Positions 3,874 to 56,775 of a stretch of 64,000 bases of DNA are shown here, piece by piece. Source of the DNA: Arenibacter sp. 6A1 (GTDB taxonomy: Bacteria; Bacteroidota; Bacteroidia; Flavobacteriales; Flavobacteriaceae); assembly GCF_012272855.1 (NCBI RefSeq), contig NZ_JAAXCQ010000008.1, forward strand, positions 124,001 through 188,000. Direction: 5' to 3'. Numbering within the stretch: the first letter of the stretch is position 1; each line of letters begins with the position of its first letter. Under the pieces are notes generated by a model that did not search any database, was not told the origin of the DNA, and saw only the letters and a list, made by a program, of their open reading frames with translations. The translations under genes were made by a program, and so were the position numbers.

Positions 3874-4003
3874 TTTGGGCGTCACCCTTTTTCCGCTTTT
3901 CAGCGGCAAAAGGGTCGCGCTTTCCGTTTTATCTTTTATTTTTATCTTTTACTTGCCTAAGGGCAAGATAAAAATAAAAGGATGTCTCTTCAATCGCTTA
4001 CGC
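3874..4003 (+). repeat. Composite palindromic repeat, copy 1 (long AT-rich variant)
   Basis: Begins TTTGGGCGT and ends CGCTTACGC, sharing the frame of four other copies in the window (16144, 33297, 55543, 56696). It contains two hairpins. The first pairs ACCCTTTT-tCCGCT with AGCGG-c-AAAAGGGT around 3883-3915. The second pairs an AT-rich arm at 3931-3945 plus CTTGCC with GGCAAG plus the arm at 3968-3983. The central arm differs in sequence from the other copies yet still folds. It sits inside the haem operon between hemE and the EI24 gene. Confidence 0.75.
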
Positions 4004-4015
4004 AAAATGGCTAGT

Positions 4016-4777
4016 ATGCTTAAACATATATTAGGAGGTATAAAAGCTTATTCGGGTACTTTTCGTCTCATTGCTACCCTAAGACTCTGGAAGTATTTTT
4101 GGATTCCAATTATCATTAGCCTACTCACAGCAGCACTCATCATCACAGCTGCCTATTCCCTATCAGATGCTATAGGCCTTTTTATTTCCCAAGCTTGGGT
4201 CTGGGAATGGGGAAAGGAAACCTTTACGGTCATCAGCGAAATTTTAGGAGGCCTACTCATCCTACTATTGGGGTTTATCCTTTACAAACATATCGTCATG
4301 GCACTATCGGCACCTTTTATGAGTCCGGTATCCGAAAAAATAGAGGAACATCTCCTTGGAAAAAGCAACCACAACCATAGAAAAACGTCCTTTATGGAAC
4401 AACTTTGGCGGGGAATCCGAATCAACCTTCGGAACTTAAGTATGGAACTTTTACTGACCCTTCCAATTTTGCTATTGGGACTTATTCCCGTCATAGGAGT
4501 GGTAGCTACCCTACTTTTATTTGCAGTGCAGGCGTATTATGCCGGCTTTGGAAATATGGATTATACCTTAGAACGTCATTTAAAATATAAGGACAGCCTT
4601 CTCTTTGTCAGAAAAAACAAAGGAACAGCCATAGGCAACGGTATCGTTTTTATGCTTTTTCTGTTTATCCCCGTCCTAGGCGTTATTTTGGTGTTGCCCC
4701 TATCGGTCACCGCAGCGGCCGTTAAAACGGTAGAATTATTAGAAGCAGAAAATAAGATCGCAAGGGTCCCCAATTAA
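4016..4777 (+). CDS. EI24-domain (CysZ-like) membrane protein
   Basis: A 253-residue inner-membrane protein of the EI24/CysZ type, with hydrophobic segments near residues 25-50, 65-90, 140-170 and 215-240 and basic loops between. CysZ of E. coli is a sulfate channel, but the substrate here is unknown. The reading frame is open upstream to 3875, but that part lies in a palindromic repeat, so the start is set at the Met at 4016 (MLKHILGGIKAY matches related proteins); the Met at 4007 is an alternative. Placed between hemE and hemF, as is common in flavobacteria, so a link to haem metabolism is possible but unproven. Confidence 0.85.
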   Translation: MLKHILGGIKAYSGTFRLIATLRLWKYFWIPIIISLLTAALIITAAYSLSDAIGLFISQAWVWEWGKETFTVISEILGGLLILLLGFILYKHIVMALSAPFMSPVSEKIEEHLLGKSNHNHRKTSFMEQLWRGIRINLRNLSMELLLTLPILLLGLIPVIGVVATLLLFAVQAYYAGFGNMDYTLERHLKYKDSLLFVRKNKGTAIGNGIVFMLFLFIPVLGVILVLPLSVTAAAVKTVELLEAENKIARVPN

Positions 4778-4863
4778 TTTCGATGGCGCAATTATAGACC
4801 ATCACATCCAAGAAGAAAACTAAAGGAACGTCTGTAAAAAGAGGGTTCCAAGAAAAATATACT

Positions 4864-5775
4864 ATGAAAGATAAATTTTACGAATACATTCTAAAATTAC
4901 AAGACACCATCACGGCCAAGTTAGAAGCGGTAGACGGAAAGGCAACTTTTAAAGAAGACCTTTGGCAACGTCCCGAAGGTGGTGGCGGTCGCTCTAGGGT
5001 TATAGAGAACGGGGCCGTTTTTGAAAAAGGAGGAGTCAATATTTCAGCCGTGCACGGGGCACTGCCAGAAAGCATGCAGAATTATTTCGGGGTTCAAGAT
5101 GCCGATTTTTTTGCCTGTGGCCTTAGCCTGGTCATCCACCCAAAAAACCCTATGGTACCTACCGTACATGCCAATTGGCGCTATTTTGAAATGTACGACA
5201 AGGACGGGAAATTGGTAGACCAATGGTTTGGCGGCGGACAAGACCTTACCCCCTATTACCTCTTCGATGAAGATGCCCAACACTTTCACGAGGTGTGTAA
5301 AAATGCCTGCGATAAGCACAACCCTAGCTTCTATGCTACCTACAAAGAAAAATGCGATGCCTATTTTTGGAATACCCATAGAAATGAAGCCCGTGGAGTA
5401 GGCGGACTTTTTTATGACTATTGCAAGGCTACGGATACCATGTCTATGGAAGATTGGTATGCTTTTGAAACCGAAGTAGGGAATAGTTTTTTAGAAGCCT
5501 ATGTTCCCATTGTAGAAAGGAGAAAAGACCTACCTTATACTCCGGAACAACGCCATTGGCAAGAAATACGCCGTGGCCGGTATGTAGAATTTAACCTGGT
5601 ACACGATAAAGGTACCTTGTTTGGCCTAAAAACAAATGGCCGTATAGAAAGTATTCTGATGAGTCTACCCCCACATGTACAGTGGGTATACGACCATCAT
5701 CCGGAAAAAGACAGCGAAGAAGAACGCCTGCTAAAAGTACTGGCACAGCCTAAAGAATGGGCTAAAACCTCCTAA
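4864..5775 (+). CDS. hemF: Oxygen-dependent coproporphyrinogen-III oxidase
   Basis: Uses O2 to decarboxylate two propionates of coproporphyrinogen III to protoporphyrinogen IX. The 303-residue sequence carries the HemF signatures RPEGGGGRSRV, HANWRYFEMY, GGGQDLTPYYL and RGRYVEFNLVHDKGT, with the conserved His residues. Presence of the aerobic enzyme implies growth with oxygen; the anaerobic HemN is not in the window. It is 86 bp after the EI24 gene and is followed by a tiny Lys-rich gene. Confidence 0.98.
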   Translation: MKDKFYEYILKLQDTITAKLEAVDGKATFKEDLWQRPEGGGGRSRVIENGAVFEKGGVNISAVHGALPESMQNYFGVQDADFFACGLSLVIHPKNPMVPTVHANWRYFEMYDKDGKLVDQWFGGGQDLTPYYLFDEDAQHFHEVCKNACDKHNPSFYATYKEKCDAYFWNTHRNEARGVGGLFYDYCKATDTMSMEDWYAFETEVGNSFLEAYVPIVERRKDLPYTPEQRHWQEIRRGRYVEFNLVHDKGTLFGLKTNGRIESILMSLPPHVQWVYDHHPEKDSEEERLLKVLAQPKEWAKTS

Positions 5776-16143: not shown

Positions 16144-16226
16144 GCGTTAGGGACCGCAGCGGCATCCCCGCAGCAGCGCAAGGGATATAGCGAAGTGCCC
16201 GCCCGACGAAGGAGGGAACGCCCAAA
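16144..16226 (-). repeat. Composite palindromic repeat, copy 2
   Basis: On the minus strand it reads GGGCGTTCCCTCC at one end and GGTCCCTAACGC at the other, with GCTATATCCC and GGGGATGCCGCTGC arms around a central loop. Almost identical to the copy at 33297-33379, which lies in the opposite orientation. Confidence 0.85.
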
Positions 16227-31551: not shown

Positions 31552-33282
31552 ATGCGCCATTATATTCTGCTCCTTGTACTTGCTACTACAACCCTGGGAT
31601 GTGCCCAACAAAAAGAAGCTACCGGGAAAACCGATGATTATTTTAACCTTGTCCGCGACCACTATACAGGAGAAAAGGCTTTAGAAACCACCGCTTATGT
31701 AGCGCAATTTTGGCGAGTGGTAGGCAACGAGGGGTTTAATAAGAGCATCTATAAAATAGCGGCAGAACTAGAAGCTGCCGGGTATGTTTTGGAAGATAAG
31801 GCCGATAAAAATGATCGGTTGCGCTACCGCATCGAAAAAAGAGCTTTACAAAAGTCTACTTGGGAACCTGTATCTGCCACCCTCCGGATTCTTGGCGACG
31901 AGGATGCCCCACTACTATCGTTCAACAGCAACCGCAATATGGTATATATCAACTCCGTATCCACCCCAAAAACAGGGAGTACTGCCGAGGTAGTATATAT
32001 AAAGGACAAGGAAGACCTCAAAACTACAAATGTTAAGGGAAAAATAATCTTTACGGAACGCCAGGCAAGGGATATTTATTTGGAAGGGGTGCTTGAAAAA
32101 GGAGCTATTGGAATATTCAGTTATGACAACCCTTCATATTTACAACCCGAAAAGAACAGCACCTCCATACAATTTAGGTCCCTCCCCCATCACCCTAAAA
32201 ACCGTTGGGGAATTGCGCTTTCTTATCGGGCCAAAGAACACTTAAAAGCCAAGTTGGCCCAAGGCCCTGTAAGTGCCACAGTGACTATTGACACTAAAAT
32301 TTATCCTTCTGAGGAGCTAACCCTTATTGCCGAAGTCTTGGGCGCCGAATACCCCGACCAACGTCTTGTTTTTAGTGCGCATGTACAAGAGCCCGGCGCT
32401 AATGACAATGCTTCTGGGGTAGGAGCACAATTAGAAATGGCAGCCCTCACCGCCAAATTAATGGCCAAGGACGCGATAGACCCGCAACGAACCCTTACTT
32501 TTCTTTGGGGCGATGAAATTATATCGACCAGAAGATATATACAGGAAGACCCGAAAAGGGCCGCCGATATTAAATGGGGCATCAGTTTAGATATGGTAGG
32601 AGAAAATACGGCATTGACCGGCGGTACTTTCTTGATAGAAAAAATGCCCGACCCCTCGGCCATTTGGACCAGAGGTAATGACAAACACTCGGAATGGGGC
32701 GGAAAAAAACTCGCCCTAGAAGATATGAAACCACACTACCTCAACGATTTTATACTGTATAATTTTATGCAACAAGCAGGTTTCGCCCAATGGGTAGTGA
32801 ATACAAACCCTTTTGAAGGCGGTAGTGACCACACCCCTTTTTTACATGCCGGCATTCCCGGATTATTGCTTTGGCATTTTACCGACCAATTTTACCATAC
32901 CGATAACGACCGTATGGACAAGGTGTCGCAAGAAACGCTAAAGAATGTAGGAACGGCCGCCCTAGTTAGTGCCCTCACCTTGTTAAATGGCGACACCTAT
33001 ACCGCTGTTGATATTATTGAAATTATCAAAAAAGCAGCACTAGACCGTTTATCCAATGAATTTATAATTAGTGAAAAGGCAATTAAGGCAGGCAATAGCC
33101 CCAAAAATGAAATTGAAATCTTAGACGCTTGGGAAGACTGGTACCTTAAAGCCATTGCCACTACCATGGATATGGCGTCCCCAGAAAACACGGCCTATCT
33201 AGAGAAATCTATCCTAATGGCGCAGTCCGTTATAGAAATGCAGGCCAAGCTTTTTAAATCAGAATTGGAAAAGAAGAAATAG
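31552..33282 (+). CDS. M28-family metallopeptidase lipoprotein
   Basis: 576 residues. Signal peptide with lipobox TLGC (Cys17). A PA-like insert (about 115-230) precedes the M28 zinc domain: SAHVQEPGANDNASG (His and Asp ligands), LWGDEI (Glu), LDMVGEN (Asp) and FYHTDNDRMDKV (His). The catalytic region reads GDE rather than the usual EE. Likely an exported aminopeptidase/carboxypeptidase anchored to a membrane. Confidence 0.92.
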   Translation: MRHYILLLVLATTTLGCAQQKEATGKTDDYFNLVRDHYTGEKALETTAYVAQFWRVVGNEGFNKSIYKIAAELEAAGYVLEDKADKNDRLRYRIEKRALQKSTWEPVSATLRILGDEDAPLLSFNSNRNMVYINSVSTPKTGSTAEVVYIKDKEDLKTTNVKGKIIFTERQARDIYLEGVLEKGAIGIFSYDNPSYLQPEKNSTSIQFRSLPHHPKNRWGIALSYRAKEHLKAKLAQGPVSATVTIDTKIYPSEELTLIAEVLGAEYPDQRLVFSAHVQEPGANDNASGVGAQLEMAALTAKLMAKDAIDPQRTLTFLWGDEIISTRRYIQEDPKRAADIKWGISLDMVGENTALTGGTFLIEKMPDPSAIWTRGNDKHSEWGGKKLALEDMKPHYLNDFILYNFMQQAGFAQWVVNTNPFEGGSDHTPFLHAGIPGLLLWHFTDQFYHTDNDRMDKVSQETLKNVGTAALVSALTLLNGDTYTAVDIIEIIKKAALDRLSNEFIISEKAIKAGNSPKNEIEILDAWEDWYLKAIATTMDMASPENTAYLEKSILMAQSVIEMQAKLFKSELEKKK

Positions 33283-33296
33283 CAATTGCAGTGGTA

Positions 33297-33379
33297 TTTG
33301 GGCGTTCCCTCCTTCGTCGGGCGGGCACTTGGCTATATCCCTTGCCCTGCTGCGGGGATGCCGCCGCGGTCCCTAACGC
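33297..33379 (+). repeat. Composite palindromic repeat, copy 3
   Basis: Starts TTTGGGCGTTCCC and ends GGTCCCTAACGC, 15 bp after the M28 peptidase stop. Near-identical to copy 2 with a few substitutions (for example GCTGCGG versus GCCGCGG near the right arm). Confidence 0.85.
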
Positions 33380-33491
33380 ATCATTTTACAGACAAGAAGC
33401 CTTCCGGTTAAAGTCGTATTCATAGCCCAGAAAGATCAAAAAAACAGGGGCAATCTTTTGGACAAAGGTGGCGATACATCACTTAATAGAT

Positions 33492-55417: not shown

Positions 55418-55877
55418 GCTATACTAATATTTTTAAGTTAAAGAATAATTTTACAGCTGCAAAAATAAAACTTATCCCTCGGCCTAAAAAGGATATTGTC
55501 ACTTTTTATAGGGAGACGCTTCTTGCTGGCCATCATCCGTGCTTGGGCGTTCCCCTATCGGGTCGCTCTTTCCGCTGTATCTTTTTTAGCCGCCTGCGGC
55601 CGCCAAAAAAGGATGCCGCTGCAATAGCTAACGCTTTTCAGTGAACAATAAACAATTAGCAATTAACAATAGTGTACGTCCCTGATCAGCGTTGACCGCT
55701 TGTACACCTTAGGTCCATGCATCTTCTTACTCTAGCAGCACCTTTTAGCAAGCTATCAGGCCGTGCCACTTATATATAGCTAAGAGGTTATATACGCAGT
55801 TTAGTCCTGATATATTTATTTGCCCACTCAACTTAGAGGTATAATCGCTCTTTTTGTTAAATTCCTTACCTTAACTA
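55418..55877. other. Upstream flank of the RAYT gene
   Basis: 460 bp holding palindromic repeat copy 4 (55543-55634), then AT-rich sequence with short AACAAT-type repeats (about 55640-55668). No gene recognised before 55878. Confidence 0.6.
55543..55634 (+). repeat. Composite palindromic repeat, copy 4 (left flank of RAYT)
   Basis: TTGGGCGTTCCCC at the left, AGCTAACGC at the right. Central hairpin: CTTTTTTaGCCG-CCTG-CGGCcgccAAAAAAG. The arms differ from copies 2, 3 and 5, yet fold. Confidence 0.85.
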
Positions 55878-56594
55878 GTGGACAGTAAATGGTATAGGCA
55901 ACGAGTAAGAAACATTGACTACAAAATTGCATTAGGAAAAATCATTATAGAACTTGCTTCCAAGGGAAAAGGATTATACTCCTACGAGTATGTTGTTAGA
56001 GAAGATAAAAGCAACAAAGAAAAACAAGAAATAAAATGGCGGATAAATTCAATAACATATAGAATACCGTCTGCCCGTTTACAATCGTGGGATTATGGTA
56101 ACAGTGGATTATATTTTATAACAATCTGTACCAAAAATCGCGAACATTATTTTGGTAAAATTTTAAATGTTGAAATGCATTTGTCAGAAATTGGGAAAAT
56201 TGTAAAATCAGAATGGACCAAAACATTTGATATGCGCCCTGATATGAATTTGAAAATAGATGAATACGTTGTTATGCCCAACCATTTTCACGCAATAATT
56301 ATGATTGGTGAAAACCGATATAATACCGGTGATGGCAATGGTACCGATACGGACGCAATGCGCGGTACCGATTCCAAAACCAACCAATTCGGTCCGCAAT
56401 CAAAAAATTTGGCATCCGTAATTCGTGGGTTTAAAATTGGGGTAACCACGAACGCGCGTAAAATAAACCCTGATTTTGCCTGGCAACCGCGTTTTCACGA
56501 TCACATCATTAGAAACAACGTATCATTAGAAAAAATCCGAAATTATATCATCAACAATCCTACCCGATGGAAGGCTGATAAATTTCATAATTGA
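55878..56594 (+). CDS. REP-associated tyrosine transposase (Y1_Tnp/IS200-like), start region disrupted
   Basis: The HUH nuclease core is intact: WDYGNSGLYFITICTKNREHYFG, VVMPNHFHAIIMIG (metal His136/His138) and the catalytic-Tyr segment YIINNPTRW (Tyr223). The open frame begins with an atypical GTG at 55878, and about its first 55 residues match nothing typical. In another frame ATG 56036 reads MADKFNN then stops, and the familiar YRIPSARLQSWDYG continues in the main frame. So the original start was probably lost by a small indel around 56057. It is a RAYT that may be inactive. No partner transposon ends or resistance genes. Confidence 0.75.
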   Translation: MDSKWYRQRVRNIDYKIALGKIIIELASKGKGLYSYEYVVREDKSNKEKQEIKWRINSITYRIPSARLQSWDYGNSGLYFITICTKNREHYFGKILNVEMHLSEIGKIVKSEWTKTFDMRPDMNLKIDEYVVMPNHFHAIIMIGENRYNTGDGNGTDTDAMRGTDSKTNQFGPQSKNLASVIRGFKIGVTTNARKINPDFAWQPRFHDHIIRNNVSLEKIRNYIINNPTRWKADKFHN

Positions 56595-56695
56595 ATAACA
56601 AAATTAAATTACCAAATTAAAAAAACAATAATATGCCAGTCCCGCAATTCTGCGGAAGAGATACTGATTACATTTTTTATTGTTCCCTGTTTTCC

Positions 56696-56775
56696 GCGTT
56701 AGGGACCGCAGCGGCATCCCCGAAGCGGAGCGAGGGATATAGCGAAGTGCCCGACCCGATAGGGAAACGCCCAAA
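56696..56775 (-). repeat. Composite palindromic repeat, copy 5 (right flank of RAYT)
   Basis: Reads GGGCGTTTCCC to GGTCCCTAACGC on the minus strand; centre ATCCCTCGCTCCGCTTCGGGGAT folds as a hairpin (ATCCC/GGGAT). Inverted relative to copy 4. Confidence 0.85.

Follow-up and report, generated by a model that had tools for sequence, protein, structure and literature searches.

Do palindromes that frame a transposase gene, and that recur elsewhere in the same genome, belong to that transposase? The question is raised by a locus in the window (the whole stretch of DNA that was analysed, 64,000 nucleotides from Arenibacter sp. 6A1), where the gene for a REP-associated tyrosine transposase (RAYT) stands between two such repeats. 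From this arrangement the first-pass annotation inferred a native REP family together with its transposase. The features concerned are collected in Table 1.

Table 1. Features of the window, with positions counted from its first base
Feature	Position	Strand	Basis
Long Flavo-1 element, hemE/EI24 intergenic	3874..4003	-	Rfam 58.8 bits at 3909-4016; gene names via Pfam
Type A copy	16144..16226	+	Sequence; in G009 a near-identical element in the same position, flanks dissimilar
Type A copy, common to G009	33297..33379	-	Sequence; without Rfam match
Left flanking element, type B (Flavo-1)	55545..55634	-	Rfam RF01705 45 bits (cut-off 42) at 55557-55633; ends set from copies
Spacer, left element to ORF, starting with CAATAAACAATTAGCAAT-like heptads	55635..55877	.	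Sequence
RAYT / TnpA_REP-like Y1 transposase ORF, 238 aa	55878..56594	+	ORF, profile, fold, alignment
Usual place of the in-gene palindrome, 3' of the HUH motif; only GGTACCGATACGGACGCAATGCGCGGTACCG here, degenerate by eye	56340..56372	+	Sequence
Right flanking element, type A; 3' hairpin B-like on inspection	56696..56775	+	Sub-threshold Flavo-1

The gene was initially described as that of a tyrosine transposase, and profile, fold and conserved residues agree in identifying it as a RAYT. The NCBIfam model NF047646 (REP_Tyr_transpos) matches the ORF at 61.5 bits, under its cut-off of 80, and Pfam Y1_Tnp does so at 18.6 bits, under its cut-off of 23. The top Foldseek match of an AlphaFold model (mean pLDDT 76.8) is 4ER8, in which a RAYT is complexed with a REP hairpin (E 3.5e-6), with transposases of the IS200/IS605 type next in line, and His136, His138 and Tyr223 are invariant in an alignment (n = 24); the protein has the Y1 HUH fold with both the HUH motif and the catalytic tyrosine. 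Among 80 homologous loci from public genomes, none aligns before query residue 32, and because most align only from residue 61 (base 56058), the first ~60 residues of the window ORF lie outside the RAYT family. The structural model is weak over the same residues (window 55878-56057).

The palindromes beside the gene are likewise present in opposite orientation, as had been claimed, and their GCGTT ends point inward. Three further copies had been listed, at 3874-4003, 16144-16226 and 33297-33379; all three exist, but they are not of one kind. The five copies in the window fall into three kinds, namely type B (55545), type A (56696, 16144 and 33297) and a longer element (3874-4003). Together they are members of a large, catalogued, hairpin-forming family of flavobacterial repeats, Flavo-1 (Rfam RF01705), a computed RNA motif from Weinberg et al. 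2010 (PMC2864571) that is matched in 135 of 219 genomes sampled from the Flavobacteriaceae. The gathering cut-off of 42 bits is passed by the type B left flank and by the 3874-4003 copy. Type A falls short of it: the right flank scores 27.6 bits at 56688-56760 (E 0.00048 for the 251 bases searched), and the 33297 copy has no Rfam match at E up to 1 (33250-33430 searched). The element between hemE and the EI24 gene occupies the same position in each of the 11 relatives retrieved for that site and is therefore an old resident rather than a recent copy.

The claim of a dispersed palindrome family held when the count was extended to the whole genome. The pattern GGCATCCN{10,40}GATAYAGC has 105 + 104 = 209 matches, against 0 + 0 for the reversed control; CCCGATAGGGNAACGC with up to one mismatch has 43 matches, against 0 for its control, and at least 40 copies are 95-100% identical to the 83-bp copy. 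Such abundance is confined, within the genus, to this genome and that of one other species (G009), which has 182 pattern copies; the other 16 congeners have 1-7 each. Counts with the Rfam model at E up to 0.001 run in parallel, with 68 in the window's own genome, 64 in G009 and 5-10 in each of the other 16, and all Flavo-1 counts are floors, as 150 candidates were scored per genome in the genus set and 20 per genome in the 219-genome set. Collected from the two abundant genomes and some congeners, type A comprises 79 distinct sequences (72 of them of 81 nt) and type B 50 (43 of them of 89-93 nt). Their consensus begins GCGTTAG, their lengths are 78-101 nt, and they share one plan: an outer GCGTT/AACGC stem, an inner stem of three pairs, an AGCGG..ATCC core, a central hairpin and a CCC/GGG hairpin. 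The elements are extragenic, just 4 of 83 lying inside a mechanically predicted ORF.

Two smaller regularities were seen in and around the elements. Three bases of the central loop of type A (window 16175-16177, for example) vary almost freely while the rest hardly vary. Heptad-like ATTGTTN repeats (such as window 55640-55670) adjoin the GCGTT end in 12 of 27 type B copies and 9 of 67 of type A; the opposite side has them in 1 of 27 and 2 of 67, respectively.

Pairs of A and B facing one another recur well beyond the RAYT. Whole contigs (0.54 Mb of the window's own genome and 1.35 Mb of G009, chosen for synteny or size, some pairs being already known from pattern lists) contain eight close pairs, less than 1.5 kb apart; in every one an A is paired with a B, GCGTT ends inward, and they represent six distinct sites, two of which are common to both species. 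A further 20 stretches, chosen for close copies or a nearby RAYT, yielded 17 pairs, 15 of them divergent and two (L176 and L184) convergent with very short spacers. Elsewhere in the family Flavo-1 is mostly single, a close divergent pair being found at one of 20 loci from other genera. Nineteen spacers, drawn from 24 stretches and one more pair after three very short ones were dropped (L176, L184, L185) and L187, L192 and L195 were left out (one element only detected), were searched by tblastn for RAYT sequence, which was present in three: the spacer at the window locus and two spacers with a decayed RAYT (C2:164k of the window's own genome and C49:124k of G009). Other spacers hold repeated filler, and that of G009 C36:280k (L193 447-1096, between B and A) contains two neighbouring genes, one for a HigB toxin (Pfam PF09907, 110.8 bits) and one of the helix-turn-helix kind; at the same site in the window's own genome (C59:23354-24319) the spacer is 94.7% identical over 937 bp. 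Near-identical spacers also occupy different loci, as at C10:53k and C10:79k of the window's own genome (92% over 283 bp) and at the two loci with decayed RAYTs (95% over 422 bp). Integron attC sites were considered because of this cargo and rejected: the elements are inverted and not tandem, and the order of the boxes differs.

The history of the window's own pair can be followed at the recA site, between recA and a rhodanese-like gene that is presumably trhO. The distance between these genes is 1816 bp here, 1076 bp in G009 and 479-581 bp in the other 16 congeners. G009 has both elements at the same places, and a 209-bp part of the spacer between left element and ORF is 83% identical to its spacer there. 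Apart from a short remnant that resembles its middle part, the RAYT gene is lost. As elements and remnant share one site, the frame, and probably the RAYT too, predates the split of the species, and the frame outlived the RAYT gene in G009.

Foremost among the alternatives is the reading first offered, in which A and B are the REPs of this RAYT, an autonomous B-RAYT-A unit spread both in the ancestor of this species and G009, and most RAYTs then decayed. A RAYT or its remains between B and A at three loci, and the remnant between both elements in G009, are what such a history would leave; that 16 of the 19 spacers lack a RAYT match by tblastn is not. Copy number speaks against it as well. The survey of 219 genomes (218 genera, 91 genomes with a RAYT match) found both Flavo-1 and RAYT in 71, Flavo-1 only in 64, RAYT only in 20 and neither in 64, a significant association of presence (odds ratio 3.55, p 2e-5) of which shared ancestry or genome size may be the source. 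Copy number is another matter: in the 30 genomes with at least 15 Flavo-1 matches (20 candidates scored per genome), a RAYT match is present in 14 and absent from 16 (odds ratio 1.27, p 0.56). Copies in relatives without any RAYT had been named beforehand as evidence against the inference, and those 16 genomes supply it. The genus repeats the pattern. Congeners G002, G011 and G013 have 7, 8 and 5 Flavo-1 matches and no NF047646 match; G010 combines four RAYT matches with six of Flavo-1, and G009 two weak ones with 64. G009 has no match to the window RAYT, and one of its two weak NF047646 matches contains an internal stop. As a general rule, over the 219 genomes and the 18 genomes of the genus, the RAYT as amplifier of the elements was rejected.

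Nor do other RAYTs keep such company. Flavo-1 was found beside 0 of 35 other RAYT loci (30 from the family search, four from G025 and G019, plus L032; two of the 35 in the window's own genome) and beside 0 of 20 window-type loci from public genomes (20 of the 80 being scanned), in Rfam scans that covered ~1.5 or 2.5 kb of flank, less at contig ends, and that could miss A flanks, as type A falls under the Rfam cut-off or goes unmatched. A loose core pattern had 0 matches in 38 RAYT records, some of them overlapping. Outside these 55 loci, nine congeners have a RAYT-like NF047646 match (40-46 bits) 0.9-1.5 kb from the Flavo-1 element beside hemE. This is one shared site with the EI24 gene in between; eight of the nine have the match (L379 3141-3497, for example) in the interval from EI24 to hemF, while in the ninth (G015) the stretch ends first. 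The two genomes with ~200 copies, G009 and the window's own (window 4777-4864), lack the RAYT-like match beyond EI24. The flanking pair is also far from typical. A test of whether it is closest to the consensus had been proposed; the right A copy ranks 61 of 61, the farthest of the A sequences ranked, and the left B copy 20 of 36 (against a B consensus typed by hand from the alignment). A and B, moreover, start with neither the GTAG nor the CGTC tag of short REP palindromes.

What keeps the RAYT in play is this one lineage. Six RAYT-derived loci were found in the window's own genome, and three adjoin an A or B element: the window RAYT, the decayed C2:164k and the decayed C58:256k, the last with a B element ~165 bp away and a counterpart in G009. 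The three that do not are C58:86k, C30:0.2k and C58:246-249k, and by arithmetic from the 209 copies ~2.6% of the genome is no more than 250 bp away from one of them. The decayed C58:256k gene, however, represents another type of RAYT; the relative of that type at C58:246k comes with its own palindrome. Within the genus the two ~200-copy genomes are the only two of 18 with the GTAG palindrome of the window's RAYT (described below), a coincidence that favours the RAYT as source; the joint occurrence in two congeners is one evolutionary event.

This rival palindrome often lies inside the genes of the window RAYT's relatives. Window-type loci (75, that is the 80 minus five without the motif) have an in-gene palindrome, with arms of at least 9 bases within ~430 nt after the HUH motif, in 59 cases, against 32 of 369 control windows; it starts within 250 nt of the HUH motif in 52 of the 59 and reads GTAG..CTAC in 32. 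Insertion of a palindrome inside the gene has been published for TnpA_REP subclass 2.4, as that group is described in PMC6006769. L032, a relative in the window's own genome, holds one too, and the G009 remnant is similar to the degenerate stretch of the window gene. Among 40 genomes (the window's own and 39 relatives), GTAGAGACG..CGTCTCTAC occurs at six places in the window's own genome, two in G009, four in G025 and none in the other 37; all three genomes that have it contain RAYTs or decayed RAYTs of the window's kind, and G019 has a match to the window RAYT yet none to the strict pattern. On these pattern matches, the palindrome that tracks the window's kind of RAYT among the 40 genomes is GTAG..CTAC.

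A second type of RAYT was seen at C58:246.3-249.4 kb (L392 1860-4920). There are two copies, one of them interrupted, with GCTAGCGCGAGCGTCACGCTCGTGCCGGC upstream and, downstream, many tandem units of ~147 bp that repeat the gene end and this palindrome in inverted form. The type may belong to TnpA_REP subclass 2.6, and this locus is the better candidate for a true RAYT-REP unit in the genome.

Copy number, flanks elsewhere, consensus ranks and rival palindrome, taken together, do not support a native REP family with its transposase at the window locus. That A and B are the REPs of this RAYT is accordingly unlikely, even if a RAYT may have played some role in the repeats of this one lineage.

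Selection rather than mobility could in principle account for the numbers, if Flavo-1 were a functional RNA within transcripts. Rfam lists the family as sRNA, and the pairing of type B is conserved with covariation. In 37 of the 50 distinct B sequences, 95.2% of cells remain paired under the plan. Cells changed on both sides number 62, whereas shuffling yields 24 on average (none of 500 shuffles reaching 62) and slid controls yield 1-26; the inner stem, for example, shows a compensatory change from GCU/AGC to GGG/CCC. At paired places G-U outnumbers A-C (33 vs 9 in B, 5 vs 0 in A), an excess that suggests a single functional strand, whether of RNA or of single-stranded DNA. The constancy of the hemE-side copy, the greater conservation of the element than of either flank (below) and the surroundings of type A, with 25 of 45 copies flanked by convergent genes and one of 45 by divergent genes (background gaps: 15 and 22 of 101), would all suit an RNA. 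Against this, in the F. psychrophilum transcriptome described in PMC9723704 Flavo-1 matches seem to fall without distinction in sense or antisense of transcribed regions, many lying outside them, and the number of matches jumps from 5-10 to 64-68 between congeners. An RNA role as the reason for the high number is very unlikely. Intrinsic terminators were a separate candidate, rejected by inspection: the order of T-run and A-run around the B hairpin is wrong for one.

How the copies behave over time was followed by comparing 102 elements of the window's own genome with stretches of G009. Synteny was two-sided for 41, of which 35 have an orthologous copy; it was one-sided or inconsistent for 17, and 44 had no usable G009 match. 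Among 33 orthologues of the same type, median identity is 95% in the element, 82.5% in the 3' flank and 66.7% in the 5' flank, where chance gives ~49%. The 5' flank is the worse of the two in 26 of the 33 (p 0.0003), an asymmetry carried by type A (20 of 23); in type B it is not significant (6 of 10, p 0.19). At two orthologous places the species differ in type, one having A and the other B (C59:220728 and L083 in the window's own genome, C36:80760 and C34:103510 in G009). The script found no G009 copy for six elements with two-sided synteny, two of which (C59:52497 and C59:140144) do have one by eye. What is left of C2:147696 in G009 is an 18-bp scar of the sort that deletion between AGGGA repeats could leave, and the B element of C2:164k has no B at its G009 counterpart; L018 and L060 make up the six. 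Among the 41 elements, with the first four of these six inspected by eye, no empty site that would prove insertion was obtained. C12 of the window's own genome and C34 of G009 gave no syntenic pair; the end of C34 matches C3 of the window's own genome.

That the pair around the RAYT is a mere coincidence of dense intergenic repeats is scarcely credible, for although close pairs are about as frequent as random spacing predicts (3 vs 2.9 expected in the window's own genome, 5 vs 4.0 in G009), random placement would not make all eight divergent and join A with B in each, and G009 has both of the flanking elements in the same position.

The history that we consider probable is that of an independent Flavo-1 family which expanded before the split of the two species, with the RAYT as cargo between two of its elements and not as their amplifier. 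A lineage-specific form of Flavo-1, ~80-95 nt long, would have multiplied to ~200 copies before this species and G009 parted, and most copies would have stayed in place since, as they have in the stretches compared. A and B copies often face each other with GCGTT inward and so frame a spacer, and DNA by the GCGTT end is gained and lost faster than that on the other side, as measured for type A. The cause of this turnover is probably recombination or template switching between near-identical structured copies, processes that may also move spacers. The RAYT would then be one cargo item of one frame, like the two decayed RAYTs, the HigB toxin-antitoxin pair and the filler, its lack of association with the repeats suggesting that it did not amplify them; its kind may instead work on the palindrome so often found inside the gene of its relatives. 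Possible, though doubtful, is a more specific version, in which Flavo-1 is an oriented hairpin site acting at the level of DNA, its 5' side captures and releases DNA, and A+B pairs are exchangeable cassettes that move RAYTs, a toxin-antitoxin pair and debris between loci.

These results tie an unexplained Rfam family to concrete behaviour: lineage-specific expansion, divergent composites and one-sided turnover. In the open-licence literature no report was found of Flavo-1 as a dispersed or mobile DNA element or as linked to a RAYT. The results also carry a warning, in that a RAYT between two palindromes is not in itself a RAYT-REP pair.

Several known systems bear comparison. With TnpA_REP subclass 2.4, as characterised in PMC6006769, the window RAYT shares the motifs NH[IFV]H and YIxNNP (here NHFH and YIINNP), relatives that are mostly from Bacteroidota with cyanobacteria too, and an in-gene palindrome in most of the relatives examined; it differs in that the palindrome is degenerate in the window gene and that Flavo-1 elements frame the gene, unlike the 55 other RAYT loci. 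Subclass 2.6 of the same account comprises RAYTs from Bacteroidetes with atypical structures on their flanks, found repeatedly in the genome, a description that fits the window locus in host group and in its recurrent, atypical flanks, but the motif of that subclass is YIH[QN]NP whereas the window protein has YIINNP. REP, REPIN and BIME systems, as presented in PMC3733652, are built on short REPs (20-40 bp) tagged with GTAG or CGTC. The window family resembles them as a set of dispersed extragenic palindromes that form inverted pairs, one of them around a RAYT; it departs from them in its elements of 80-95 nt with two unlike ends and no GTAG tag at the end, in a copy number untied to the RAYT, and in spacers of up to 1 kb with unrelated cargo. 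With the Flavo-1 RNA, as described in PMC2864571, the window elements share the core AGCGG-ATCC-hairpin-GGAT-AGCGG-AAAG. To this core the window family adds an outer GCGTT/AACGC stem and a second hairpin, and it differs further in a type A that lies under the cut-off, in its ~200 copies and in its divergent A/B composites.
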